From positions 1 through 39,180 of IMG/VR virus record IMGVR_UViG_3300025325_000074: a stretch of DNA of 39,180 nucleotides; one strand, given 5' to 3'. Shown piece after piece: positions 2,708 to 36,360 of the stretch (within the stretch, counting starts at the first letter, position 1; the number at the start of each line of letters is the position of its first letter). This DNA comes from a virus. Made by a program: the position numbers and the translations under genes. The notes under the pieces were generated by a model. That model had not been told where the DNA came from and searched no databases. It was given only the letters and a program-made list of their open reading frames with translations.

Positions 2708-3120
2708 GTCAGCAAGAGCGCATTCTCCCGACGTACGAATGGGACCGACTGAAGATCGCGCAGCTGCCTCCCCTCTGGCGGTACGTGCGACCGGGCGAAA
2801 TGGACATGGTGGTGGTCGAGAACGATGCACGCATCGTTGCGTGTTGCGGCGTTCTTCGGGTACCGTGCTTCGAGGGCTTGTGGATGGCCGATGACCATCG
2901 TGGGAACGCTGGGACCGCAAGGCGACTGATGCGGATCATGGTCGCAGCCGCAAACCGGTGGGCGAATGGCTGGGCGTTTGGTGCCGCGGCTGACGACCAC
3001 ATGCGGGACATCTTGGCTCGGATTGGAGGGCAGAAGCTGCCGGCGGACTTCTACGTGCTGCCACTCCAGCCACAGAGGCTTCAGCCAGAAAGCGAAGGAT
3101 CAGAATGCCGGACGCAGTAG
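2704..3120 (+). CDS. GNAT-like N-acetyltransferase-fold protein
   Basis: A 138-residue protein whose ATG overlaps the previous stop (ATGA at 2704). The middle resembles a compact GNAT fold: a strand 'MDMVVVENDARIVACCGVLR', a short 'LWMADDHRGNAGTARRLM' stretch that resembles the acetyl-CoA-binding R/Q-x-x-G-x-G/A loop, then a helix and a strand. Small GNAT-like genes are common among podovirus tail genes. The consensus glycines are imperfect (R-G-N-A-G-T-A), so catalytic competence is uncertain. Possible roles include modification of a virion or host protein; none is demonstrated by the sequence. The gene runs 16 bases into the next one. Confidence 0.55.
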   Translation: MSQQERILPTYEWDRLKIAQLPPLWRYVRPGEMDMVVVENDARIVACCGVLRVPCFEGLWMADDHRGNAGTARRLMRIMVAAANRWANGWAFGAAADDHMRDILARIGGQKLPADFYVLPLQPQRLQPESEGSECRTQ

Positions 3121-3575
3121 CAGCCGCAGCCATCACGGCGGCGGGCGGGCTCCTCGGTGGCGGTCTGTCGTCGCGTGCGTCGAACCGAGCGAGTACGCAG
3201 CAAGCACGGGCGGCGGAGGAGGCCCTCAGGTTCGAACGCGAGCAAGCGGCGGAGGACAAACGGCGGTATGACGAGCAGCAAGCAGCGCTGAAAGCGCAGT
3301 GGGACGCGGAGCAGGAGCGGCGCAGGCCGTATCGCGAAGCGGCTGAGCGCATCATCTCCCGGTACGGTGGCAGGCCCAGCACGGCGCGCGTGACGCCTAC
3401 CGAGATGCCGGCAGGTTGGACGCCTGGTGCGACGGAGTCAGTCAAACGCCGGCTCACGTTGGGCGCCATCGCCGGTTCGGTTCCGACACTGCGCTCGGAG
3501 CCTGAGACGCCTGCGTTGGTCGGGCCGCGCTTCAGCATCCGGAACTGGCAGGACTGGAGCAACTACGGTGCCTGA
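3105..3575 (+). CDS. Ejection-type internal virion protein (small, coiled coil)
   Basis: A 156-residue protein. It begins with an Ala/Gly-rich hydrophobic segment (residues 4-21, 'AVAAAAITAAGGLLGGGL'). A long charged helix, rich in Glu, Gln, Arg and Ala (about residues 25-85), follows and should form a coiled coil. The C-terminus ends in 'FSIRNWQDWSNYGA'. A hydrophobic glycine-rich N-terminus plus a coiled coil is the typical look of small podovirus DNA-ejection proteins that leave the capsid before the DNA. It sits between head-completion genes and the larger ejection candidates. The family assignment is by architecture, not by a specific motif. Confidence 0.6.
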   Translation: MPDAVAAAAITAAGGLLGGGLSSRASNRASTQQARAAEEALRFEREQAAEDKRRYDEQQAALKAQWDAEQERRRPYREAAERIISRYGGRPSTARVTPTEMPAGWTPGATESVKRRLTLGAIAGSVPTLRSEPETPALVGPRFSIRNWQDWSNYGA

Positions 3576-3765
3576 CCAGCCCTGCGACGTGTGCTTCGCT
3601 GTCGACGGCGACCGCACGCCGAAAGCTACTGCTCGGTGGTGTGGGAGGTGCCGGAAGTGGATCTGCGACCGCTGCCGGTACAGCCCGCGGCGGATCCAAG
3701 CAGTGGCGCATACTGTACGGCGCACGCTGCGTGACTACGTTTCGAAACGTGAGGTTTCGACATGA
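3568..3765 (+). CDS. Small zinc-ribbon protein
   Basis: A 65-residue protein with a GTG start that overlaps the upstream gene by 8 bases. Three CxxC knuckles are visible: C6-x-x-C9, then 'CGRCRKWICDRC', followed by a basic tail. The spacing suggests a zinc ribbon or treble clef binding one or two zinc ions. Such orphan zinc microproteins recur in this genome. Function is unknown; nucleic-acid or protein binding is the usual role of such folds. It overlaps the next gene by 4 bases (ATGA). Confidence 0.6.
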   Translation: MPDQPCDVCFAVDGDRTPKATARWCGRCRKWICDRCRYSPRRIQAVAHTVRRTLRDYVSKREVST

Positions 3766-4397
3766 TCGCCTCAAGGGAACCGTGCGGCCCGGACGGGTAC
3801 ACACCAGACGGCTCGCCATGCCAACCTGAGCCAGGGCCGCCACCGCCGCCTCCGGAGTCTCCAGGGCCGCTAGAATTCCCGAAGCAGCCCACAGGCGAAG
3901 TTGAAGTCGGAGGTGAGGGCGGAGGTGAAGACCTCGGCTTCTCGCCGTTCTCGGGCCCGATGAGCTTCCGGTACAACGTGCCTGGCGTCCCGCGCTTCCG
4001 GGCTCCGGTGTTCCGGGCGCCCTCGGCAGCGGAGGCGCTGGAGGAGCCTGGTTACAAGTTCGGAGCCGAGGAAGGCCGCCGGGCGCTCGAGGCGTCTGCA
4101 TCCGGCAGGGGTACGCTGCGTACGGGGGGCACGCTCAAGGACATCGTGGCGTGGGGCGACCGCTTCGCGACTCAGCACTACGGAGACGTATTCAACCGCG
4201 CTCTCTCCGCGTTCGACCGTCTCTATCAGGGCAGCCGCGACGAGTACGCGCCGTTGCTCGCGGAATGGAACGCACGCAGTGCTGCGGGCCTGCGTGGCGC
4301 GGAGCTGGACTGGGCGCGCACCTACGATCAGTGGGCGCTCGAGCAGCAGCTCCGTGCGCAACGCGAGGCTGCGATTCTAGGAGCCGGAGCCGGATAA
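3762..4397 (+). CDS. DNA-transfer / ejection-type virion protein
   Basis: A 211-residue protein. A Pro/Gly-rich N-terminus (to about residue 65) leads to a helical C-terminal half. That half contains a recognisable block seen in many phage DNA-transfer proteins: 'EPGYKFGAEEGRRALEASA', then 'SGRGTLRTGGTLKDIV', then 'ATQHYGDVFNRALSAFDRLY'. The family consensus is roughly 'pGYqFrl.eGl.aLe.saaarG.l.sGgtlk.l..yg...as.eY...yNR'. It is likely an internal virion or tail-channel protein delivered with the genome. It is ATGA-coupled to the zinc-ribbon gene and followed 6 bases later by the next ejection candidate. Confidence 0.65.
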   Translation: MIASREPCGPDGYTPDGSPCQPEPGPPPPPPESPGPLEFPKQPTGEVEVGGEGGGEDLGFSPFSGPMSFRYNVPGVPRFRAPVFRAPSAAEALEEPGYKFGAEEGRRALEASASGRGTLRTGGTLKDIVAWGDRFATQHYGDVFNRALSAFDRLYQGSRDEYAPLLAEWNARSAAGLRGAELDWARTYDQWALEQQLRAQREAAILGAGAG

Positions 4398-4403
4398 CGC
4401 AGC

Positions 4404-5783
4404 ATGCCAGCCGCGATCCCGTACGCGCCAGCCGACTACTACCGGCCCCGGAACCGCATCGCCGATCTGATCCTGGCTGCGGGCCAAGCGCGTGCTGCGG
4501 GCGCCGCACGCAGCGGAGAGATCTGGGGAGACGCGATCGCTCGAGCGGCGTCCGGCATCGGTGGAGCTATCGCGGATGCTCCGCGGCTGCGTGCGGAGAG
4601 CACCGAGCGTGAGGCTGCCACCGCCTTCCGTGAGCGCCAGATGGCTGCCCTGGAACGAGGAGAGCAGAGGGAGGAGGCTGTCAGTGGCGCTCTCGGTGGG
4701 TATGGCCAAGAGGACTTCGACATCAATGCAGCGGTGAGCTCACTGCCTCCCGACGCGCAACTCGGAGCGCGGAAGATCTACCAGGAGCTCGAGTCCTCGC
4801 GGCTTCAGGCTGACGAGAGCACCGCGTACGTGCTGGCGAAGGGTGCGCGCATCGCAGAGAGCCTGCTGGAGACGCCGTTGCAAGACGTCGGCATGGAGCT
4901 GGTGTCCAAGTACTTCCGCCAGCACTTCCCGCAGCAGATGGAGCGCCTCGAGGCCACCGTGAAGGAGGACCCATCGAAGCTGAAGCCGCTACTGCAGCAC
5001 CTACAGGGACAGTCCGAGCGGTTCCGGAAGGAACTGGAGGCGAGGAAACCAAAGACGCGTGAGATCAAGACGCGCCAGCCTGGGGGCGGCGAGCGGATTG
5101 AGATCGTCGAGGACGTGCCGGGGCTCACGCGCGAAAGCGCGCCGGCGCCCGAACAGCCGCTCTCGCGGATCGAGGCCGAGGCAGCCGCACGAGCGCGCGG
5201 TACGGCGAGAGGGAAGCCACCCGGCGGTGACGAGGAGATGACGTTGAGCCCCGAGGGCGTTGTGCTCTCCAGCTATGGTCCGACGAAGAAGTCTGAAGTG
5301 CGCCGCCAGGCGATGGAGCGCGGGCTGCCTGTGTTCGAGACTGCTGCGGCGCAAGGCAAGGGCATCACGCTGGCTGGGATCGTAGCCGACGCGAAAGAGT
5401 TGAACGACTTGCTAGCGGACCCAGAGGTTCAGGCGGCGGTGGGCCCGGTTGCTGGGCGATGGGCGCAAGCCCGGGGCACTGTCATGTCGCTTCCGGGGTC
5501 GGTGCGTCGGGCGCTCCAACTCATGACCTCGCTGTCGGACACCGAGCTGCGCAAGCGGTCTGGTGCAGCGATCAGCCCGGGTGAGATGCAGCGGATTCTC
5601 AAGTTCGCCACCGACCCTAACAAGCCGCTTGACCACAACACCATGGCGGTTTCGGGCCTGCTTAAGTCTGCGGCGCGCGACTACAAGGCGCTCTCCGGAG
5701 TCGACCTGGGCGTGGCGAATGAGCCAGAGTCAGATCCGGTGTCCGAGATCCTCTCGATCTTTAACGCAGCCGGGCGCCGCTGA
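4404..5783 (+). CDS. Large helical ejection-type virion protein
   Basis: A 459-residue, mostly alpha-helical and highly charged protein. It has an N-terminal Ala-rich helix (residues 20-60), long Glu/Arg/Gln helices with coiled-coil character (60-210), a Pro-rich linker near 245-255, and a C-terminal helical region from about 285 ('TLSPEGVVLSSYG') to the end. It contains 'LADPEVQAAVGPVAGRWAQA', a segment resembling recurrent domains in large internal virion proteins. No enzymatic motif is evident. It lies between two other ejection candidates and shares one base with the next start (TGATG). The role is inferred from order and composition. Confidence 0.6.
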   Translation: MPAAIPYAPADYYRPRNRIADLILAAGQARAAGAARSGEIWGDAIARAASGIGGAIADAPRLRAESTEREAATAFRERQMAALERGEQREEAVSGALGGYGQEDFDINAAVSSLPPDAQLGARKIYQELESSRLQADESTAYVLAKGARIAESLLETPLQDVGMELVSKYFRQHFPQQMERLEATVKEDPSKLKPLLQHLQGQSERFRKELEARKPKTREIKTRQPGGGERIEIVEDVPGLTRESAPAPEQPLSRIEAEAAARARGTARGKPPGGDEEMTLSPEGVVLSSYGPTKKSEVRRQAMERGLPVFETAAAQGKGITLAGIVADAKELNDLLADPEVQAAVGPVAGRWAQARGTVMSLPGSVRRALQLMTSLSDTELRKRSGAAISPGEMQRILKFATDPNKPLDHNTMAVSGLLKSAARDYKALSGVDLGVANEPESDPVSEILSIFNAAGRR

Positions 5784-7600
5784 TGCCGCTCGAGACTCTT
5801 CAGAGTCATCCCGCGTGGGCGAAGCTGCGCGAAGACGAGCGCGAGAAGGTGCTCGCGGCGTTCGAGCAGTTGAGCGAGCAGGACCGTGCGCGCCTGTACC
5901 AGAGACTCGGTGCGGGTCGTAGTGCAGAGCCGGCGCCTTTCGATGAAAGCGACCTACTCAATCCGGAGCGCGGCGCGGAGATGGTGCGGCAGTCGCTGTT
6001 GGCCGCAGGCCCCGGTGGGCTGGCGGGCCTCGGTGTGCGTGCGGTGGCCGGGGGCGCAGCGCGTGCGGTCGCCGGAACGGGCCTACTCAGCCAACTCGCG
6101 CAGAAGTTCGGCGGCAAGGTTTGGCCGATGGCGAAGGGCGCCGCCATGGGCGCCGCTCTGGAAATGGTGCCGATCATCGGAGGCGGGAGTTTGCTGCAGG
6201 GCGCTAAGACGGGCGCGATGCTCGGGATGGGGCAAAAAGGATCAGGCCCGCTTTGGAAGTTCGGAAAGAAGCGCGCGCTGATCGAGAACGCGGCTGGCAT
6301 CGCTCGTGGTACGAAGGCCGCGCCTGCGGCAGCGCGAGCGGCGAAAGCCGCGCCCACCGTTGCGCGTGCGGCGCCGGAGGCGGCTGCAACGCCTGCAGCG
6401 ATCGAAAAGGGGTACGTTTACCACGCAACAAACGCCGAAAGGCTTGAGGATATCGCAAGCGCCGGCAAGCTGAAAACGTATCGACCAAGCTATGGAACAG
6501 ATCAGCGCGCGTGGCCTGATGGCGCCATTGAACGGCGTGCCTATTTCGGGAAAACAGCGGAGGGGGTTCGCCAATTCGCTCCTGAGCATGGCCAGGCGGT
6601 TGTCGTCAGGACCAAGGTCGGCCCACACATCCGGAGGGAGAGCACTGGTGATCTCTATACGCGCGAGCCCATCAAGTCCGACATGCTCGAGTATCAAGCT
6701 GCAGATGGATCGTGGATCCCCGTTTCGTCTCTGGCTGCGAAGGGAGTAACCGCAACCACAATGACGTTGGGCAAGCTGGTCGAGAAGGCATCGGCTACGA
6801 AGCCCGGTTCTATGCGCCAGGCGCTCGCCGAGCCGCCCGCGTTCGCGCGCGGGCCCGCACGTCCGATCCCAGCGATCGAACCGTCAGCCGCAATCTCACG
6901 AGTTCTCTCGCAGGGCGAATACGATCACTACGGCATTCGAGTGCTCGGGAAATCCAAAGTGAAAGTGGGAGAAACGCTCAAGGCCAGTCGTGAATTTCTC
7001 GATGATAAACCGACTGGCGCTATGGTTGAAGGCGGCACTTCAGTGGTTGAGGTAACCGGAAAAAACATTCAAGAAGCCCTCGAACGTGCCAATAGGTATG
7101 GACTCAGGGGCAACAAAGTGGTTTTGGTTGGATCGAATCGACGAACGATAGGCCGTCCTGATCTAGGCGAGGTGGCCCTAGAAAATCCCAAGGTATTGGC
7201 TGTTTTGGGTGAGCGTTCAGGGTCGTCTATCGCCACCATTGCTGGAGCGCGTGCTGCACCCGCCGCCCAAGCCGCTGCGCCCTCAGCGGCGCCGACCATG
7301 CGCCAGGTACTCGCGGAGCCGCCCGCTTTCGCGCGCAACCCGATCCGGCCTCCACTCCCGAAAGGAGCGCAAGCCGGTCCGAAAGGTAGGTCCATGCCCG
7401 CAGAAAACACCACCGTGGGCGCGCACCTGCCCGCGGTCCCGGCCACAGCCGGGCCCGGCGCGCGCAAGGAACTCCTCGAGATCGCGCTACGTGAGCTAAA
7501 AAGCGCCGGGCATCGGCAGGAATACATCGTGGACAAGCTGAGCAGGCGCTTCGGCATTAGCGCGGCCGAGGCGTATCGCATCGTTCGAGGGACGCGATGA
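5783..7600 (+). CDS. Ejection-type virion protein carrying ADP-ribosyltransferase-like cargo
   Basis: A 605-residue mosaic protein. Residues 1-60 are helical and charged. Residues 68-150 are Gly/Ala-rich and hydrophobic, as in membrane-penetrating ejection proteins. Residues 209-314 form a compact domain opening 'GYVYHATNAERLEDIASAGK', with 'RRAYFGKT' and 'MLEYQAADGSWIPV' further on. The Y-H-x-T start, the Y-F centre and the late E resemble the H-Y-E arrangement of ADP-ribosyltransferase/KptA-type folds. Residues 378-476 are a second unidentified domain. Each insert precedes a copy of 'MRQ(A/V)LAEPPAFAR' (344-356 and 506-518), and the inserts look less GC-rich than the flanks. The C-terminus (560-605) is a small helix-turn-helix-like bundle. 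Enzyme activity is an inference; the virion location follows from context. Confidence 0.6.
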   Translation: MPLETLQSHPAWAKLREDEREKVLAAFEQLSEQDRARLYQRLGAGRSAEPAPFDESDLLNPERGAEMVRQSLLAAGPGGLAGLGVRAVAGGAARAVAGTGLLSQLAQKFGGKVWPMAKGAAMGAALEMVPIIGGGSLLQGAKTGAMLGMGQKGSGPLWKFGKKRALIENAAGIARGTKAAPAAARAAKAAPTVARAAPEAAATPAAIEKGYVYHATNAERLEDIASAGKLKTYRPSYGTDQRAWPDGAIERRAYFGKTAEGVRQFAPEHGQAVVVRTKVGPHIRRESTGDLYTREPIKSDMLEYQAADGSWIPVSSLAAKGVTATTMTLGKLVEKASATKPGSMRQALAEPPAFARGPARPIPAIEPSAAISRVLSQGEYDHYGIRVLGKSKVKVGETLKASREFLDDKPTGAMVEGGTSVVEVTGKNIQEALERANRYGLRGNKVVLVGSNRRTIGRPDLGEVALENPKVLAVLGERSGSSIATIAGARAAPAAQAAAPSAAPTMRQVLAEPPAFARNPIRPPLPKGAQAGPKGRSMPAENTTVGAHLPAVPATAGPGARKELLEIALRELKSAGHRQEYIVDKLSRRFGISAAEAYRIVRGTR

Positions 7601-8913
7601 CCCGCACGCGCACGCTCAGCCTCGCCGGCGTCTTGCTGCTCGCATTCTCGATCCAGGCATGGAGCGCGACCGGAACGGTGATGCCCTCGCCGAAGTTCTA
7701 CTGCCTGGACAACAACGGAGCGATCGTGAGCGGCGGGAAGCTGTTCACGTACGCGTCTGGCACCACGACGAAGCTCGACACCTACACCGATGCGACGCTG
7801 GCCACGCCCAACGCGAACCCCGTCGTCTGCGATTCTTCCGGGCAGGCGACGGTGTTCCTGAGTGCCACTGCCTACAAGTTCACCTTCGCGCCGTCGACGG
7901 ACACCGACCCGCCGACCGCTGCCTATTGGACGGTGGACAACGTGGGCGCGGTTGCGTACATCAGCACTGACCTAGACGTGTTGGGTACTGCAGGAGAAGC
8001 CCTGTCGGCGAGTGATGCAGTGTACGTGAGCGATGGCAGTGGCGGACTCACGGCTGGACGCTGGTACAAGACGGACTCGGACAACACCTACTCGAGCACG
8101 CTGCCACAAGCTGTCGGTTTCGCGCCCTCCGCTATCGCATCGGCCGCGGCTGGCAGCATCCGCATGAGCGGGCGCTTGACGGGACTGGCTGGGTTGACGC
8201 CAGGCAGCACGTACTACGTGTCGGCGACACCCGGGGCGATCACGAGCACAGCACCAGCGAACCAACGGATCTTGGGCGTTGCGGACTCCGCGACGTCGCT
8301 GGTGATTGCGACGTCGGTCTTGACGCCTGCCTCCGCGACTGCCGCCGGCATCGTGTCGCTCGCGGCGCAGACGCTTGGCTCGGGGGTGAAGACCTTCACG
8401 AGCGCGCCAGTGTTCAACGCTCCTGCGACCTTCCGGCCCGGTGCAAGCGCCAGCGCCGACGCCACCATCTCCGGCAGGGTGTCGACCAACACGACTACGG
8501 TCGGCAACGTTGGGGCTGGCGAAGACGACCTGATGAGCTACTCGCTGCTCGCCAACGCACTCGATGCGAACGGCAAACTCATCCGCATCTTGACGTGGGG
8601 CGACACGGCAGGCAACGCGAACAACAAGCAGCTCAAGGCGTACTTCGGCGCGACGAACATCTCGCTGTTCAATGGTGGGTTCAATGCCGCCCTCTGGCAT
8701 GCCGAGGTGTACATCGTCCGTACGGGTGCCGCGACGCAGGTTCTGAAGGGTACGGTGTGGATGCGCTATGGAGGTGTGCCCGACGTGTACTCACCAGCCG
8801 TTGCGACTCCAGCCGAGACGCTGTCGGGAGCTGTGACGATCAAGTTCACGGGTGAGGCCACGACGAACGACGACATCCGGCAACAGGGCATGATCGTCGA
8901 GGTCATCGGGTAG
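7597..8913 (+). CDS. Tail fibre / tailspike-type protein with an N-terminal signal-like segment
   Basis: A 438-residue protein coupled by ATGA to the upstream gene. Residues 29-110 match the common phage fibre head-binding pattern 'p.p.f.d.nG..l.gGkl.tYaaGTtt..dtYtDa....pNaNPvv.d..G.a.vFl': see 'GGKLFTYASGTTTKLDTYTD' and 'TPNANPVVCDSSGQATVFL'. The remainder is beta-rich, with a C-terminal sandwich that probably forms the trimeric tip. Oddly, the protein begins with 'MTRTRTLSLAGVLLLAFSIQ' followed by AWSA, a textbook Sec signal sequence in shape. Virion fibres normally lack one. It is the last gene before the control region. Confidence 0.75.
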   Translation: MTRTRTLSLAGVLLLAFSIQAWSATGTVMPSPKFYCLDNNGAIVSGGKLFTYASGTTTKLDTYTDATLATPNANPVVCDSSGQATVFLSATAYKFTFAPSTDTDPPTAAYWTVDNVGAVAYISTDLDVLGTAGEALSASDAVYVSDGSGGLTAGRWYKTDSDNTYSSTLPQAVGFAPSAIASAAAGSIRMSGRLTGLAGLTPGSTYYVSATPGAITSTAPANQRILGVADSATSLVIATSVLTPASATAAGIVSLAAQTLGSGVKTFTSAPVFNAPATFRPGASASADATISGRVSTNTTTVGNVGAGEDDLMSYSLLANALDANGKLIRILTWGDTAGNANNKQLKAYFGATNISLFNGGFNAALWHAEVYIVRTGAATQVLKGTVWMRYGGVPDVYSPAVATPAETLSGAVTIKFTGEATTNDDIRQQGMIVEVIG

Positions 8914-28736: not shown

Positions 28737-31304
28737 GTGCCCGTGGCCGCCCGTCCAACCTCTGACGATCAGCTTGCAGACGAGGTCGCGCGCTACTTCG
28801 CGGACCCGCTGGGGTTCGTGCTGTTCGCGTATCCGTGGGGCGAGCCCGGGGCCCTTGAGGGGCACGACGGGCCCGACATCTGGCAGCGTGAGTTTCTGCG
28901 GGGCGTCGGCGCTGAGGTCGCGGCCGCAGCGTTTGACGGCTTGACGCCGGTCGCGCCCATCCGGCGTGCGGTGGCGTCAGGTCATGGGGTGGGCAAAAGC
29001 ACGATGGCCGCGTGGCTTGTGGACTGGATCATGAGTACACGTCCGTTAGCGCGCGGCACCGTCACGGCGAACACGTTCACGCAGCTCCAGACCAAGACCT
29101 GGTCCGCCATCAAGGAGTGGACGTCGCGCTGCATCACTGCGCACTGGTGGGTGCTCGGCGACCAGCGCATGTACCACAAGGACCACAAGGACTCCTGGTT
29201 CTGCGCGCCGCAGTCGTGCAAGGAGGAGAACACGGAAGCGTTCGCCGGCCAGCACGCAGCGACCTCGACGAGCTTCTACATCTTCGACGAGGACTCGGCC
29301 ATCTCGGACAAGATTCACGAGGTCGCGGAGGGCGGCTTGACGGACGGTCAGCCGATGATCTTCCGGTTCGGCAACCCGACGCGCAGCATGGGCGGATTTC
29401 ACGCCGCGGTGTTCGGTCACGACCGTGCGCGTTGGCACCCGACGATCATCGACTCGCGTCAGTCTCGGCTGACGAACAAGGCGCAGATCGCGGAGTGGGA
29501 GCAGGAGTTCGGAGAGGACTCCGACTTTTTCCGCGTCCGGGTCCGCGGCATTCCGCCGCGGGCCTCTGACGCACAGTTCATCGACCACGAGCGTGTACTC
29601 CAGGCTCAGAAGCGCCAGGTGGCGGTGATGCCGGACGAGCCGCTGGTGGTCGGGTGTGACCTTGCGTGGGGCGGCTGTTTCGACTGCGAGACCGAGATTC
29701 TCACGAGCGATGGCTGGAAACTCTTTTCAGACCTGCGTGGATCGGAAGCAGTGCTGAGTTTGGATGGCGACGTAGCCACTTGGGCGCGCATGACGGCGAT
29801 CCATCGTTACTGGCATGATGGGGCGATGAACTTGCGCGAGTCGAGCAAGGTAAACTTTTGCGTAACTGACAACCACAACTTCATCGTGCGCTCGCACTAC
29901 ATGAGCAAGCGCTACCAGATTCGGCGGTACGATCGTCTCCCGAAGGCATATCAACTGCGGGCGTGGCATCGCTGGGAAGGGACAAGTCCAGCCACGATCG
30001 CCTTCGAATCTCAGAAACGCCAGCCTCACGGGGGCGCTGTTGTCTGGCGCCACACCTTTGCCGCCGAAGACTGGGCGGCGTTTTTGGGCTGGTTCGTTGC
30101 TGAGGGGAACGTCTATACGGCGAAGCTGCGGCCAGGTCAGCAGCAACGCCCACTCGTCGTAGAGCTTTCACAACGCCATGCGGAGAAGCGCAAAGAAATC
30201 GAACGCCTACTTTCTCGAATGGGCCTCCGTCATAGTCGGTGGAGTTCGCATGGCACGATCCGTTTCCAACATCGGGGGATTGGGGCTTGGTTACTGGAGC
30301 ACTGCGGGCATGGAGCTGCGAATAAGCGCATGCCCGAATGGATCAAGGAAGGTTCCGCTATCGTGATGCGGGCCTTTCTCGACGCATTTCGGCGTGGAGA
30401 TGGGAGCCAGCATCCGGATGGAACCGGACGTTGCTACTACACCTCCAGTCGAGCATTGGCGGATGATCTGCAGGAAGTGCTTGCGAAGTTGGGGTGTGCC
30501 GGTAAGCTGTCGCCCGCGGCACCAGCCGGATCGGTTGTGCTGATCGAAGGGCGCCGTGTGGTGCGACAGCACGATACTTGGCGCGTGGGTGAGCGTCCAT
30601 CACATGGTCGGCAAGGGAATCGTTGGCATGCAGATCGGACCGTACTCAAGCGGACAACACAACGTGTCCCGTATCGCGGCTTTGTGTGGTGTGTCTCGAC
30701 TCCGCACCGAACGATCTATGTTCGTCGTCATGGTGTTCCGATGTGGAGTGGGAACAGTGACGACAACGTGATCCGGTTCCGGCGCGGGAACGATGCGCGG
30801 TCGATCTCTCCGATCCGGATCAAGGGCGAGTTCACGCGCGACCCGGCAGTGCTCGTCAACCGGTTGGCGGACGTGCTGTCACGCACATGGGATGAGCATC
30901 CGGTAGCGGCGCTGTTTCTGGACAGCGCGGGGATCGCGGGCCCGATAGGCGCGCGGCTCCGGGCGCTTGGGTTTCAGCAGGTGCGCGAGATCAACTTCGG
31001 CAGCGACAGCCCCGACAGCAAGTGCCGGTACTATCGCGACTACATGTGGCAGCAGATGAAGGAGTGGCTGCTCGTGGGCGCGATCGACACGAGCGCGGAG
31101 CTCGAGAGCGACTTGATCGGACCCGGCGTGCGACCCGACCCGCGTCAGCGCGTGTGGCTCGAGAGCAAGGAGCAAATGAAGGGACGGGGTGTAGACTCTC
31201 CAGACGAAGGGGATGCCTTGAGCCTCACGTTCGCTGCGCCGGTGGGAGTCGTCCAGCGGCCGACGTCTCGCGTGAAACGGCCTGGGTCCTGGATGGGGGT
31301 GTAG
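28737..31304 (+). CDS. terL: Large terminase subunit with in-frame intein
   Basis: 855 residues in total; 495 after removing the intein at 314-673. ATPase: Walker A 'SGHGVGKST' (81-89) and Walker B 'FYIFDEDS' (180-187, D184/E185). Nuclease (RNase H fold): D308 in 'VGCDLAWGG', D729 in 'LFLDSAGIAGPIGARL' and D826 in 'SPDEGDALSLTF'. Removing the insert restores 'GCDLAWGG' joined to 'SDDNVIRF', the normal nuclease motif I. The GTG start lies 5 bases after the small terminase stop. TerL cuts and pumps DNA into the P22-like procapsid. Without splicing the nuclease site would be broken. Confidence 0.92.
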   Translation: MPVAARPTSDDQLADEVARYFADPLGFVLFAYPWGEPGALEGHDGPDIWQREFLRGVGAEVAAAAFDGLTPVAPIRRAVASGHGVGKSTMAAWLVDWIMSTRPLARGTVTANTFTQLQTKTWSAIKEWTSRCITAHWWVLGDQRMYHKDHKDSWFCAPQSCKEENTEAFAGQHAATSTSFYIFDEDSAISDKIHEVAEGGLTDGQPMIFRFGNPTRSMGGFHAAVFGHDRARWHPTIIDSRQSRLTNKAQIAEWEQEFGEDSDFFRVRVRGIPPRASDAQFIDHERVLQAQKRQVAVMPDEPLVVGCDLAWGGCFDCETEILTSDGWKLFSDLRGSEAVLSLDGDVATWARMTAIHRYWHDGAMNLRESSKVNFCVTDNHNFIVRSHYMSKRYQIRRYDRLPKAYQLRAWHRWEGTSPATIAFESQKRQPHGGAVVWRHTFAAEDWAAFLGWFVAEGNVYTAKLRPGQQQRPLVVELSQRHAEKRKEIERLLSRMGLRHSRWSSHGTIRFQHRGIGAWLLEHCGHGAANKRMPEWIKEGSAIVMRAFLDAFRRGDGSQHPDGTGRCYYTSSRALADDLQEVLAKLGCAGKLSPAAPAGSVVLIEGRRVVRQHDTWRVGERPSHGRQGNRWHADRTVLKRTTQRVPYRGFVWCVSTPHRTIYVRRHGVPMWSGNSDDNVIRFRRGNDARSISPIRIKGEFTRDPAVLVNRLADVLSRTWDEHPVAALFLDSAGIAGPIGARLRALGFQQVREINFGSDSPDSKCRYYRDYMWQQMKEWLLVGAIDTSAELESDLIGPGVRPDPRQRVWLESKEQMKGRGVDSPDEGDALSLTFAAPVGVVQRPTSRVKRPGSWMGV
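29676..30755 (+). other. Intein with LAGLIDADG homing endonuclease in terL
   Basis: 360 residues, C314 to N673 of the precursor. Block A starts 'CFDCETEILTSDGWKLF'. Block B is 'VTDNHNFIV'. The two endonuclease motifs are 'FLGWFVAEG' (449-457) and 'FLDAFRRGDG' (547-556), with acidic residues E456 and D555. Block F is 'YRGFVWCVSTPHRTIYVRR' and block G is 'VPMWSGN' followed by extein Ser674. The penultimate residue is Gly, not His. The insertion point is between the two halves of nuclease motif I. The DNA is visibly less GC-rich than the flanking terminase coding sequence. Confidence 0.9.
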
Positions 31305-33986: not shown

Positions 33987-35108
33987 ATGACCTCCACCGA
34001 GGGCGTCGGCAACGCGCCTACCGGGAACACCAGCTACGTGACTGTCGAGCACGACGGCTGGACTGCCGACAGCAACCGGCTCACCGAAGATCAGGTGCGT
34101 ACCGCTCTCGAGGCGCCATCCGCGAAGGACGAAGCTGCTGCGGCTGCCGCGAAGCTGGGTCAGTTGGGCGGGAAGGCAGCAGCCGAGGCGCGCAAGACGA
34201 AGCCCGTCAAGGCCGACGAGGGTGAGGACCAGGATGCGGCCGATGCGGTTGAAGGTAAGGCTGCGGCGCCCGGCGGGGCGACTGCGAAGCCGGAGTCCGA
34301 AGACGAGAAGGCGGTCGCGATCGAGAAGCGCAAGCGCGATGCCCGCGAGCGAGTGCTGCAAGCCACGCGCGAGGCAGCCGAGCTCAAGCGCCAGCTCCGC
34401 GAGCGTGATGCTGAGATCGAGCGACTGAGGACTGCCACTCGAGAGCCGCTCAAGGACACGCCGCCGCCGGCGGCGGACGATGCCGACGATGAGCCCACGG
34501 TCGAAGCGTACGACGCTGCGGGCAAGGACTTTCAGACGTTCCTGAAGGACCACACCGATTGGGCGGTGCGGAAGGCACTCGACAAAGCCGAGGCCGAACG
34601 CTCTGTCCGAGATCGTCAGCGAAGCTTCCAGAGCGAGATGCAGAAGCATTTCGAAAGCTTCGACAAGCAGATGTCGGAAGCCGGAGGCGCCGCTTTTCTG
34701 GAGGAGCTGGTGCCCGAGTTGCAGGACCTCGAGCCGTCCGTCTTCGCGTTGGCGGATGGCCGCACCCCGAACGCGGCGAATGCACTTGCAGACGAGTGTC
34801 TACGCTCAGCCGATGCGCCTCGGCTGATGCGCTTTCTGTCGGCGCATCCGGACGTAATCCAGCGCCTCTCCACGCTGCGCCCTCGTGAGTTTGAGAGGGA
34901 GATGGGGAAGATCGAGAGCAAGTTGGAGGACGCCGCCACTGCTGGCAATCCGGCGCCCAAGCTCTCGAGTCAAGCACCGCGTCCCGCGCGGCCAGTCGCG
35001 GGAACGACGGCGGTAGTCGATGCGGAGCCCGATCCCCGCGCGTCTTCGTATGAGGAACATGCCTCGTACTACAACGCGCTGGAACGCAGGAGACGGCGCT
35101 CGGCATAG
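33987..35108 (+). CDS. Scaffolding protein
   Basis: 373 residues, highly charged and mostly helical. It is Ala/Glu/Lys/Arg-rich with a coiled coil at about 105-150 ('RERVLQATREAAELKRQLRE') and a Pro/Asp-rich hinge. The basic C-terminal helix 'EEHASYYNALERRRRRSA' corresponds to the coat-binding basic end of P22 scaffold. It lies between portal and coat as in P22. It should direct procapsid assembly and exit or be recycled. The ATG has no ribosome site and coincides with the predicted RNA start of the promoter just upstream. Confidence 0.8.
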   Translation: MTSTEGVGNAPTGNTSYVTVEHDGWTADSNRLTEDQVRTALEAPSAKDEAAAAAAKLGQLGGKAAAEARKTKPVKADEGEDQDAADAVEGKAAAPGGATAKPESEDEKAVAIEKRKRDARERVLQATREAAELKRQLRERDAEIERLRTATREPLKDTPPPAADDADDEPTVEAYDAAGKDFQTFLKDHTDWAVRKALDKAEAERSVRDRQRSFQSEMQKHFESFDKQMSEAGGAAFLEELVPELQDLEPSVFALADGRTPNAANALADECLRSADAPRLMRFLSAHPDVIQRLSTLRPREFEREMGKIESKLEDAATAGNPAPKLSSQAPRPARPVAGTTAVVDAEPDPRASSYEEHASYYNALERRRRRSA

Positions 35109-35142: not shown

Positions 35143-36360
35143 ATGGCGAACACCTTTCAGGATCCGCTCTGGTACCTCAAGGAGGTCGGGCGGGGGTACG
35201 AGAACTCGCTGACGTTCATCGCGCACGTGAAGCGCATCGCGTCGAGCGAGTACAAGGTCGAGGGCGCGAAGGTTGGCAACACCGTCAACTATCGGCTGCC
35301 CCCGCTGTTCATGGTGTCGGACGGTCAGGCGCTGGACGTGCAGAACATCCAGAACCGATCGGTGCCGATCACCCTGACCAACCAGAAGCACGTGGACATG
35401 GGTTGGTCCACGTGGCAGGAGACGACTGAGCTGAACACGGCGATGGAGGAGACGAAGGCCGCGGGCAACGCCCTGGCGTCCGTCATCGACGCGCTGGCGT
35501 TCTCGACGGTCTACAAGGACGTGTACAACGCCGTCGGCACGCTGGGCACGACACCCACGACCCGGCTGACGTACCTCACGGCTGGGCGCCTGCTGACGGA
35601 CCTCGCCGTGACCAAGCAGGGTCGCAATGCGGTGCTGGATCCGGAAGCCGCGATCCAGATCGCGGACACCGTGGCGGCCATGTTCAACCCGCGTGAGGAG
35701 TCGTCCGAAGCCTTCCGTGAAGGGTTCATGGGTAAGGGGCTCGGACTCACGTTTTACGAAGACCAGAACGTGGCCACGTTCACGAGCGGAGCCGCTACCG
35801 GCGCAAGTACGCCCTTGGTGAACGGCGCGAACCAGACCGGCTCGAGCCTGATCACCGATGGCTGGTCCAGCTTCTCCGGAGTCAAGGGAGACACCTTCAC
35901 TCTGGGAGGGGTGTTCTCGGTCAACCCGCTGAGCAAGAAGTCCACCGGACGGCTACAGCGCTTCGCGCTCACCGCGAACGTATCGGACACCGCGGGCGAT
36001 GCCACTCTCAGCATCACGCCGTCGATCGTCACGTCGGGCGCGTACCAGAACGTGAGCAACAGCCCGGCCAACAACGCGGTGCTCACCTACTGGAACATGG
36101 CTGCGGGCGGAACGTTCGCCGCGACCGTGTCTCCGACGTCGATGGTATTCCATCCCGCGGCGTTCGCGTTCGTGACCGCGGACCTGGTCAAGCCGAACGG
36201 TGGCGCCAACGTCGAGCGGATCAGTTCTCCCGCTCGAGGAGTGGCGCTTCGTATGGCTGAGCAGTGGGACGTCCGCACCGACCAGAACATCACGCGCATC
36301 GACACGATCGTGGGCGCTGCGACGCTCGACGCTCGTTTCGCTGTTCGCGCGCAAGGGTAG
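35143..36360 (+). CDS. P22-type major coat protein (HK97 fold)
   Basis: 405 residues, near the 430 of P22 gp5. Hallmarks of the P22 coat family include 'ANTFQDPLWYLKEVGRGYEN', 'GNTVNYRLPPLFMVSDGQAL' and 'NRSVPITLTNQKHVDMGWST', then 'GFMGKGLGLTFYEDQNVATF' and a C-terminal region 'WDVRTDQNITRIDTIVGAAT' with 'ARFAVRAQG'. It forms the T=7 icosahedral shell. A short GGGCC/GGCCC hairpin lies in the 34-base gap before the ATG. The upstream scaffold and downstream accessory genes complete the head cluster. Confidence 0.92.
   Translation: MANTFQDPLWYLKEVGRGYENSLTFIAHVKRIASSEYKVEGAKVGNTVNYRLPPLFMVSDGQALDVQNIQNRSVPITLTNQKHVDMGWSTWQETTELNTAMEETKAAGNALASVIDALAFSTVYKDVYNAVGTLGTTPTTRLTYLTAGRLLTDLAVTKQGRNAVLDPEAAIQIADTVAAMFNPREESSEAFREGFMGKGLGLTFYEDQNVATFTSGAATGASTPLVNGANQTGSSLITDGWSSFSGVKGDTFTLGGVFSVNPLSKKSTGRLQRFALTANVSDTAGDATLSITPSIVTSGAYQNVSNSPANNAVLTYWNMAAGGTFAATVSPTSMVFHPAAFAFVTADLVKPNGGANVERISSPARGVALRMAEQWDVRTDQNITRIDTIVGAATLDARFAVRAQG

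Follow-up and report, generated by a model that had tools for sequence, protein, structure and literature searches.

An ADP-ribosyltransferase-fold domain in a replaceable block of a putative ejection protein of a P22-like podovirus

We analysed a 39,180-nucleotide stretch of viral DNA, hereafter the window, which corresponds to one virus record (IMG/VR record IMGVR_UViG_3300025325_000074, positions 1 to 39,180). Its gene layout is of the P22-like podovirus type. The gene studied here encodes a protein of 605 amino acids (aa) in the slot that gp16 occupies among the ejection proteins of P22. Two cargo domains lie between its N- and C-terminal scaffold parts, and the first of them is predicted to adopt an ADP-ribosyltransferase (ART) fold. 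The features of this gene are as follows (GC3, G+C content at third codon positions):

5783..7600, + strand: gp16-slot gene for the cargo-carrying protein (605 aa), following the gp7-like gene and a 459-aa gene
5783..6389, + strand: N-terminal scaffold, a helical start followed by an Ala/Pro linker; common to the cargo-less sister phages
6390..7294, + strand: replaceable block, absent from the sister contigs L017 and L018
6398..6730, + strand: cargo domain 1, ART fold of the H-Y-D type, residues ~206-316
6422..6424, + strand: H214 in a YHxT motif, strand 1 (strand taken from the model); invariant in 21/21 sequences
6542..6544, + strand: Y254 in an RxY(F/W) motif, strand 2; invariant in 21/21
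6650..6652, + strand: D290 in a T-(G/N)-D motif (TGD in the window), directly before a late strand; invariant in 21/21
6812..6850, + strand: linker copy 1, MRQALAEPPAFAR, residues 344-356
6914..7210, + strand: cargo domain 2, residues 378-476; lowest GC3 of the genome
7298..7336, + strand: linker copy 2, MRQVLAEPPAFAR, residues 506-518; the copy kept in the cargo-less allele
7337..7600, + strand: C-terminal scaffold, ~90% identical in the cargo-less allele

The cargo-bearing allele is present in five further contigs. Viral contigs L012-L015 encode the same protein with 100% identity (L015 is truncated at the 5' end of the gene), and L016 joins the same cargo to a different N-terminal half. In contrast, L017 and L018, found in two samples, code for a 390-aa version in which both domains are missing and the linker stands once. 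Their DNA match to the window ends at 6389 and resumes at 7295, the flanks diverging by ~10-16%, and an unrelated 77-residue Ala/Arg-rich segment free of domains takes the place of the cargo block. Since L014 and L017 share one sample, both cargo states coexist. L016 changes from L017-like to window-like directly before the cargo, which suggests recombination at the cargo edge or, for this contig alone, possibly an assembly chimera. A search for further sister phages with the gp10-like and tail genes returned the same group only.

At the level of sequence, the ejection-slot protein thus occurs with and without its cargo. The initial annotation had proposed that effectors are loaded modularly into this protein and that a comparison of relatives would tell whether the domains are fixed and never exchanged. 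They are not fixed, as L017 and L018 lack both. The presence or absence of cargo between constant flanks agrees with modular loading; at the site where the proposal called for another effector, the sister phages hold the domain-free segment. Exchange of this cargo for a different effector may nevertheless occur. Separately, L012 differs from the window by ~2% overall and by zero bases between ~4900 and 8390, which suggests a recent inter-strain exchange of the whole ejection/cargo stretch.

The two linker copies, MRQ(A/V)LAEPPAFAR, agree in 12/13 residues and 35/39 nucleotides and lie exactly where the initial annotation had placed them. Neither LAEPP nor PPAFAR has a copy beyond these two in the six reading frames of the window. 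The best self-match of the 605-aa protein scored 82; local shuffles (n=300) averaged 39 and did not exceed 58. A candidate homology between the stretch upstream of linker copy 1 and the linker region of L017 was not significant. The inserts had also been described as less GC-rich than the scaffold, and this holds: the scaffold has a G+C content of 0.69, compared with 0.58 for domain 1 and 0.51 for domain 2. We used GC3 as a measure that depends less on amino-acid content. Against a genome mean of 0.77, domain 1 has a GC3 of 0.61, at the 12th percentile of the genome, and domain 2 has 0.465, the lowest value there (bottom 0.5%). By these values, domain 2 is compositionally foreign and domain 1 mildly so.

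Domain 1 was aligned with relatives gathered by iterating through viral contigs. The alignment holds 21 sequences including the window, and the others are 33-54% identical to it. Residues of a TDQxxWPDG core are invariant, as are H214, Y254 and D290. The AlphaFold model built from this alignment had a predicted local distance difference test score (pLDDT) of 90.7. When it was compared with the PDB, the top-ranked chains were nearly all ARTs. The best match was Tpt1/KptA (Z 8.8, 85 residues, root-mean-square deviation 2.6), followed by LT/CT (Z 8.2-7.8), PT, DarT, Arr and the Rhs toxin TreTu; Z does not exceed 8.8, yet the matched families have one fold in common. In a viral structure library, a mycobacteriophage ParB-like protein came first (TM 0.88), then DarT, PARP and RNA 2'-phosphotransferase. 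We conclude from the model that domain 1 has an ART fold. A catalytic triad of the kind looked for in ARTs (H-Y-D/E or R-S-E, in strands 1, 2 and 5) is predicted: strand 1 carries H, strand 2 carries Y, and D is next to the late strand. The H-Y-D pattern is that given for the ARTs of polyvalent proteins (PMC5512222). The initial annotation had likened this region to an ART-type fold from a YHxT motif, a Y-F pair and a late glutamate. The fold and the invariant histidine stand, and the structure search it proposed for this domain did rank ARTs highest, but the late glutamate does not: position E303 is Q or D in some of the sequences, and the conserved acidic residue is D290.

Domain 1 belongs to an ART family that looks nearly virus-only, lacks a Pfam model and is found in large modular phage proteins. 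The window's domain 1 had no match above the curated cut-off to the Pfam ART-PolyVal or Tox-ART-HYD models; Tox-ART-HYD1 was weakly matched by 3/21 aligned sequences (best E 0.03). Domain 1 does match the C-terminus of phrog_3147 and of mycobacteriophage cluster C 'ParB-like' proteins. Among 84,980 bacterial and archaeal species genomes, scanned with two short peptide patterns, a single relative was found, L055; a scan of this kind suggests a virus-centred distribution but does not prove it. The domain 1 of L055 is 60% identical to that of the window, and the gene that immediately follows it is homologous to the window's tail gene (E 1e-9).

The carriers of domain 1 outside the window's group span 173 to 2,510 aa, and none has the window's scaffold. 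Like the window gene, its relatives are encoded among late or virion genes: carriers lie beside portal genes in L024, L026, L040, L051 and L053, beside terminase genes in L026 and L045, and beside major capsid genes in L042, L046 and L049. The carriers of the cluster C phages Pleione and ScoobyDoobyDoo agree in 94% of their last 125 aa but not in their middle part, where one of them has a GNAT domain and the other an unrelated sequence.

We compared each carrier with itself and with 100 shuffles. Three unrelated carriers have their own repeated linkers that exceed all 100 shuffles. In L024, KSDTSEASQAE occurs in three copies, the first of which abuts domain 1. L049 has two clear copies and one diverged copy of CGRDxGGRFGxxNTCQ, and in L051 one of the copies of DxDKY...MADGG lies just before domain 1. 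A random-placement test of repeats beside domain 1 gave a combined p of 0.015, which is weak and comes from a post hoc set-up. A repeated linker in L038 was not counted, as 3/40 shuffles were as good. The L049 carrier (4251-7112, 954 aa) adjoins a major capsid gene and seems, as read by eye, to contain GNAT-like regions and additional ART-like ones (FHGT) flanked by its linkers. It would be attractive to see such lineage-specific repeats as standard docking or recombination junctions, invented differently by unrelated phages, at which effectors are loaded, stacked or dropped with the scaffold undisturbed; we regard this generalisation as speculative and doubtful.

Searches with domain 2 against phages (E up to 10), plasmids, PADLOC, Pfam and PDB sequences gave no match, and those elsewhere gave matches at chance level. 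Two weak matches in 398 genomes of one phylum (L056, L057) failed on re-examination. A profile comparison of the two domains was negative, and the idea of domain 2 as a duplicate of domain 1 was abandoned. Its single-sequence model had a pLDDT of 45. Base composition, together with the absence from L017, suggests that domain 2 is a recent arrival. The initial annotation had counted two cargo effectors; the ART fold agrees with this for domain 1, whereas domain 2, with no relative found in these searches and a low-scoring model, may or may not be one. Two disparate domains in one protein are clear among the relatives, for example in the GNAT and ART protein; in the window protein, one ART stands beside a compact second region.

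The surrounding genes place the 605-aa protein in an ejection block, in keeping with the ejection-type protein of the initial annotation. The relevant genes are:

734-2230: Hc3/gp10-like gene
3105-3575: piece matching a 'DNA ejection' PHROG
3762..4397, + strand: gp7-like ejection gene, 211 aa ('DNA ejection' PHROG phrog_598, E 5e-8)
4404..5783, + strand: gp20-slot gene, 459 aa, assigned by position and length
7597..8913, + strand: tail-fibre/spike-like gene (phrog_26190)
28737-31304: terminase large subunit, 855 aa
31306-33534: P22-type portal (PF16510)
33987-35108: scaffold (head) gene
35143-36360: major head protein

The P22 proteins gp7, gp20 and gp16 have 229, 471 and 609 aa according to PMC8954989. 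The genes of the window encode 211, 459 and 605 aa and keep the order gp7-gp20-gp16. We therefore assign the 605-aa protein to the gp16 slot. Its open reading frame overlaps both neighbours, starting at 5783, where the upstream gene ends, and ending at 7600, beyond the next start at 7597. The N-terminal scaffold has Gly/Ala-rich hydrophobic stretches around residues 71-140, and the C-terminal scaffold may end in a helix-turn-helix-like segment, judging from its sequence.

Elsewhere in the window, the terminase gene contains a LAGLIDADG intein (start near GGCFDCETEIL, end near WSGN/SDDN; match to PI-PkoII, E 2e-7), and the terminase of L026, a domain 1 carrier, seems intein-bearing too. A 633-aa gene at 15667-17568 matches the phage 'protease' family phrog_3677 over residues 385-598 (E 2e-48); cleavage of the repeated linkers by its product is conceivable.

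We consider it probable that the gp16-slot ejection protein of this P22-like podovirus has turned into an effector carrier of the polyvalent type, bearing an H-Y-D ART and a second domain. The 605-aa protein would be packaged in the virion and leave the head together with the DNA or ahead of it. At infection, the scaffold would move from the virion to the cell envelope and place its cargo, the ART and the recently acquired domain 2 held between an Ala-rich stretch and the conserved C-terminus, in the periplasm or cytoplasm. Delivery into the host with the DNA is what the ejection slot leads us to expect. Once inside, the ART would most likely draw on NAD+ and modify a macromolecule of the host at an early stage of infection, by analogy with T4 Alt. 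As the cargo-less allele has one linker copy and the loaded allele two, MRQ(A/V)LAEPPAFAR would mark domain junctions, and recombination between linker or Ala-rich segments is the probable route by which cargo enters or leaves.

Several observations weigh against this reading. The scaffold has no detectable homology to P22 gp16 and no ejection match in PHROG or Pfam, so that its ejection role is assigned from position, length and neighbours. The cargo-less state is known from one lineage, represented by two contigs that are 99.97% identical over 3,906 bp. Mosaicism extends beyond the cargo: the blocks 5238-5733 and 5910-6044 differ too, and in the gp20-slot gene identity to L016 and L017 ends at 5238, their C-terminal part being different. 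Finally, the ART model is nearest to Tpt1/KptA, enzymes that act on RNA 2'-phosphate, so that a protein target is not implied.

That identity is also lost in these cargo-free blocks is what ordinary mosaicism of ejection proteins would produce, with free drift and recombination of the stretch between scaffold and C-terminus, both domains as passengers and the linker repeat as a by-product of one unequal recombination instead of a site of loading. This is a real though not a likely possibility. Domain swapping among ejection proteins is known (PMC8954989), and upstream of the linkers the similarity to L017 is not significant. However, very divergent phages all keep the triad of domain 1, and three unrelated carriers have repeated linkers of their own at domain edges, even if the placement test on them is weak.

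The second alternative concerns the target of the ART, which may act on nucleic acid in the manner of KptA/Tpt1 or DarT, for example in repair or shielding of incoming DNA. KptA homologues occur in caudoviruses (PMC9503650). The top structural matches of domain 1 are of this kind, but the match covers the ART half of Tpt1 only (model residues 4-105 on Tpt1 91-183). Moreover, the conserved set of Tpt1 consists of Arg and His residues, whereas domain 1 conserves H, Y and D. We hold a nucleic-acid target to be somewhat unlikely.

It is improbable that the product is never packaged and acts as a late intracellular toxin or exclusion factor whose gene lies in the ejection block by chance, given the gp16 operon position with overlapping genes, the hydrophobic Gly-rich stretches and the capsid and portal neighbourhood of the relatives. 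Assembly chimeras as the origin of the two alleles and of L016 are very improbable: although every contig comes from related metagenome samples and L016 combines an L017-like 5' part with a window-like cargo part, the cargo-less allele is in frame in two separate samples with flanks ~10-16% divergent, and the cargo allele recurs in the five other contigs.

If the gp16-slot protein is indeed an effector carrier, the two alleles form a natural pair of close phage relatives that differ by an effector block within a DNA-delivery protein. Such a pair would make directly testable what benefit virion-borne ARTs bring to a podovirus and whether ejection proteins serve in general as re-loadable vehicles for the delivery of proteins.

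Several known systems resemble parts of this arrangement. T4 Alt is a virion-packaged ART injected with the DNA (PMC5512222, PMC9503650), as our model proposes; unlike domain 1, it is an ART of the R-S-E type and lies outside any modular ejection scaffold. A 2022 survey found ARTs in 3% of podoviruses (PMC9503650). The cluster C 'ParB-like' proteins (Pleione gp85, ScoobyDoobyDoo gp74; phrog_3147) share a C-terminal ART that is 38-39% identical and has swapped neighbours, but their scaffold is another one, their phages are of a larger type (~155 kb) and their function is unannotated. P22 and T7 gp16, in the available part of PMC8954989, are alike in gene order, lengths and hydrophobic segments; T7 gp16 projects a hub into the cytoplasm, and modular swapping of an enzymatic (transglycosylase) domain is known for gp16-type ejection proteins. 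In that account the enzymatic cargo is a peptidoglycan hydrolase and not an ART, and we detected no sequence similarity to the window protein. The closest parallel in kind is the polyvalent proteins with Tox-ART-HYD2-like ARTs (Iyer et al. 2017, PMC5512222). They share with the window a modular carrier near virion genes, an H-Y-D ART, the use of one domain in many architectures and a predicted delivery with the DNA. The window differs in lacking matches to the Pfam polyvalent models (ART-PolyVal, LPDs) or MPTase, in having its carrier in an ejection-protein slot and in the cargo-less sister allele; the words 'linker', 'P22' and 'ejection' are absent from Iyer et al. 2017. In kind, the protein is probably best placed with the polyvalent proteins, a known theme, and what is new is the carrier in the ejection slot, the cargo-less sister allele and the junctions marked by a repeated linker.
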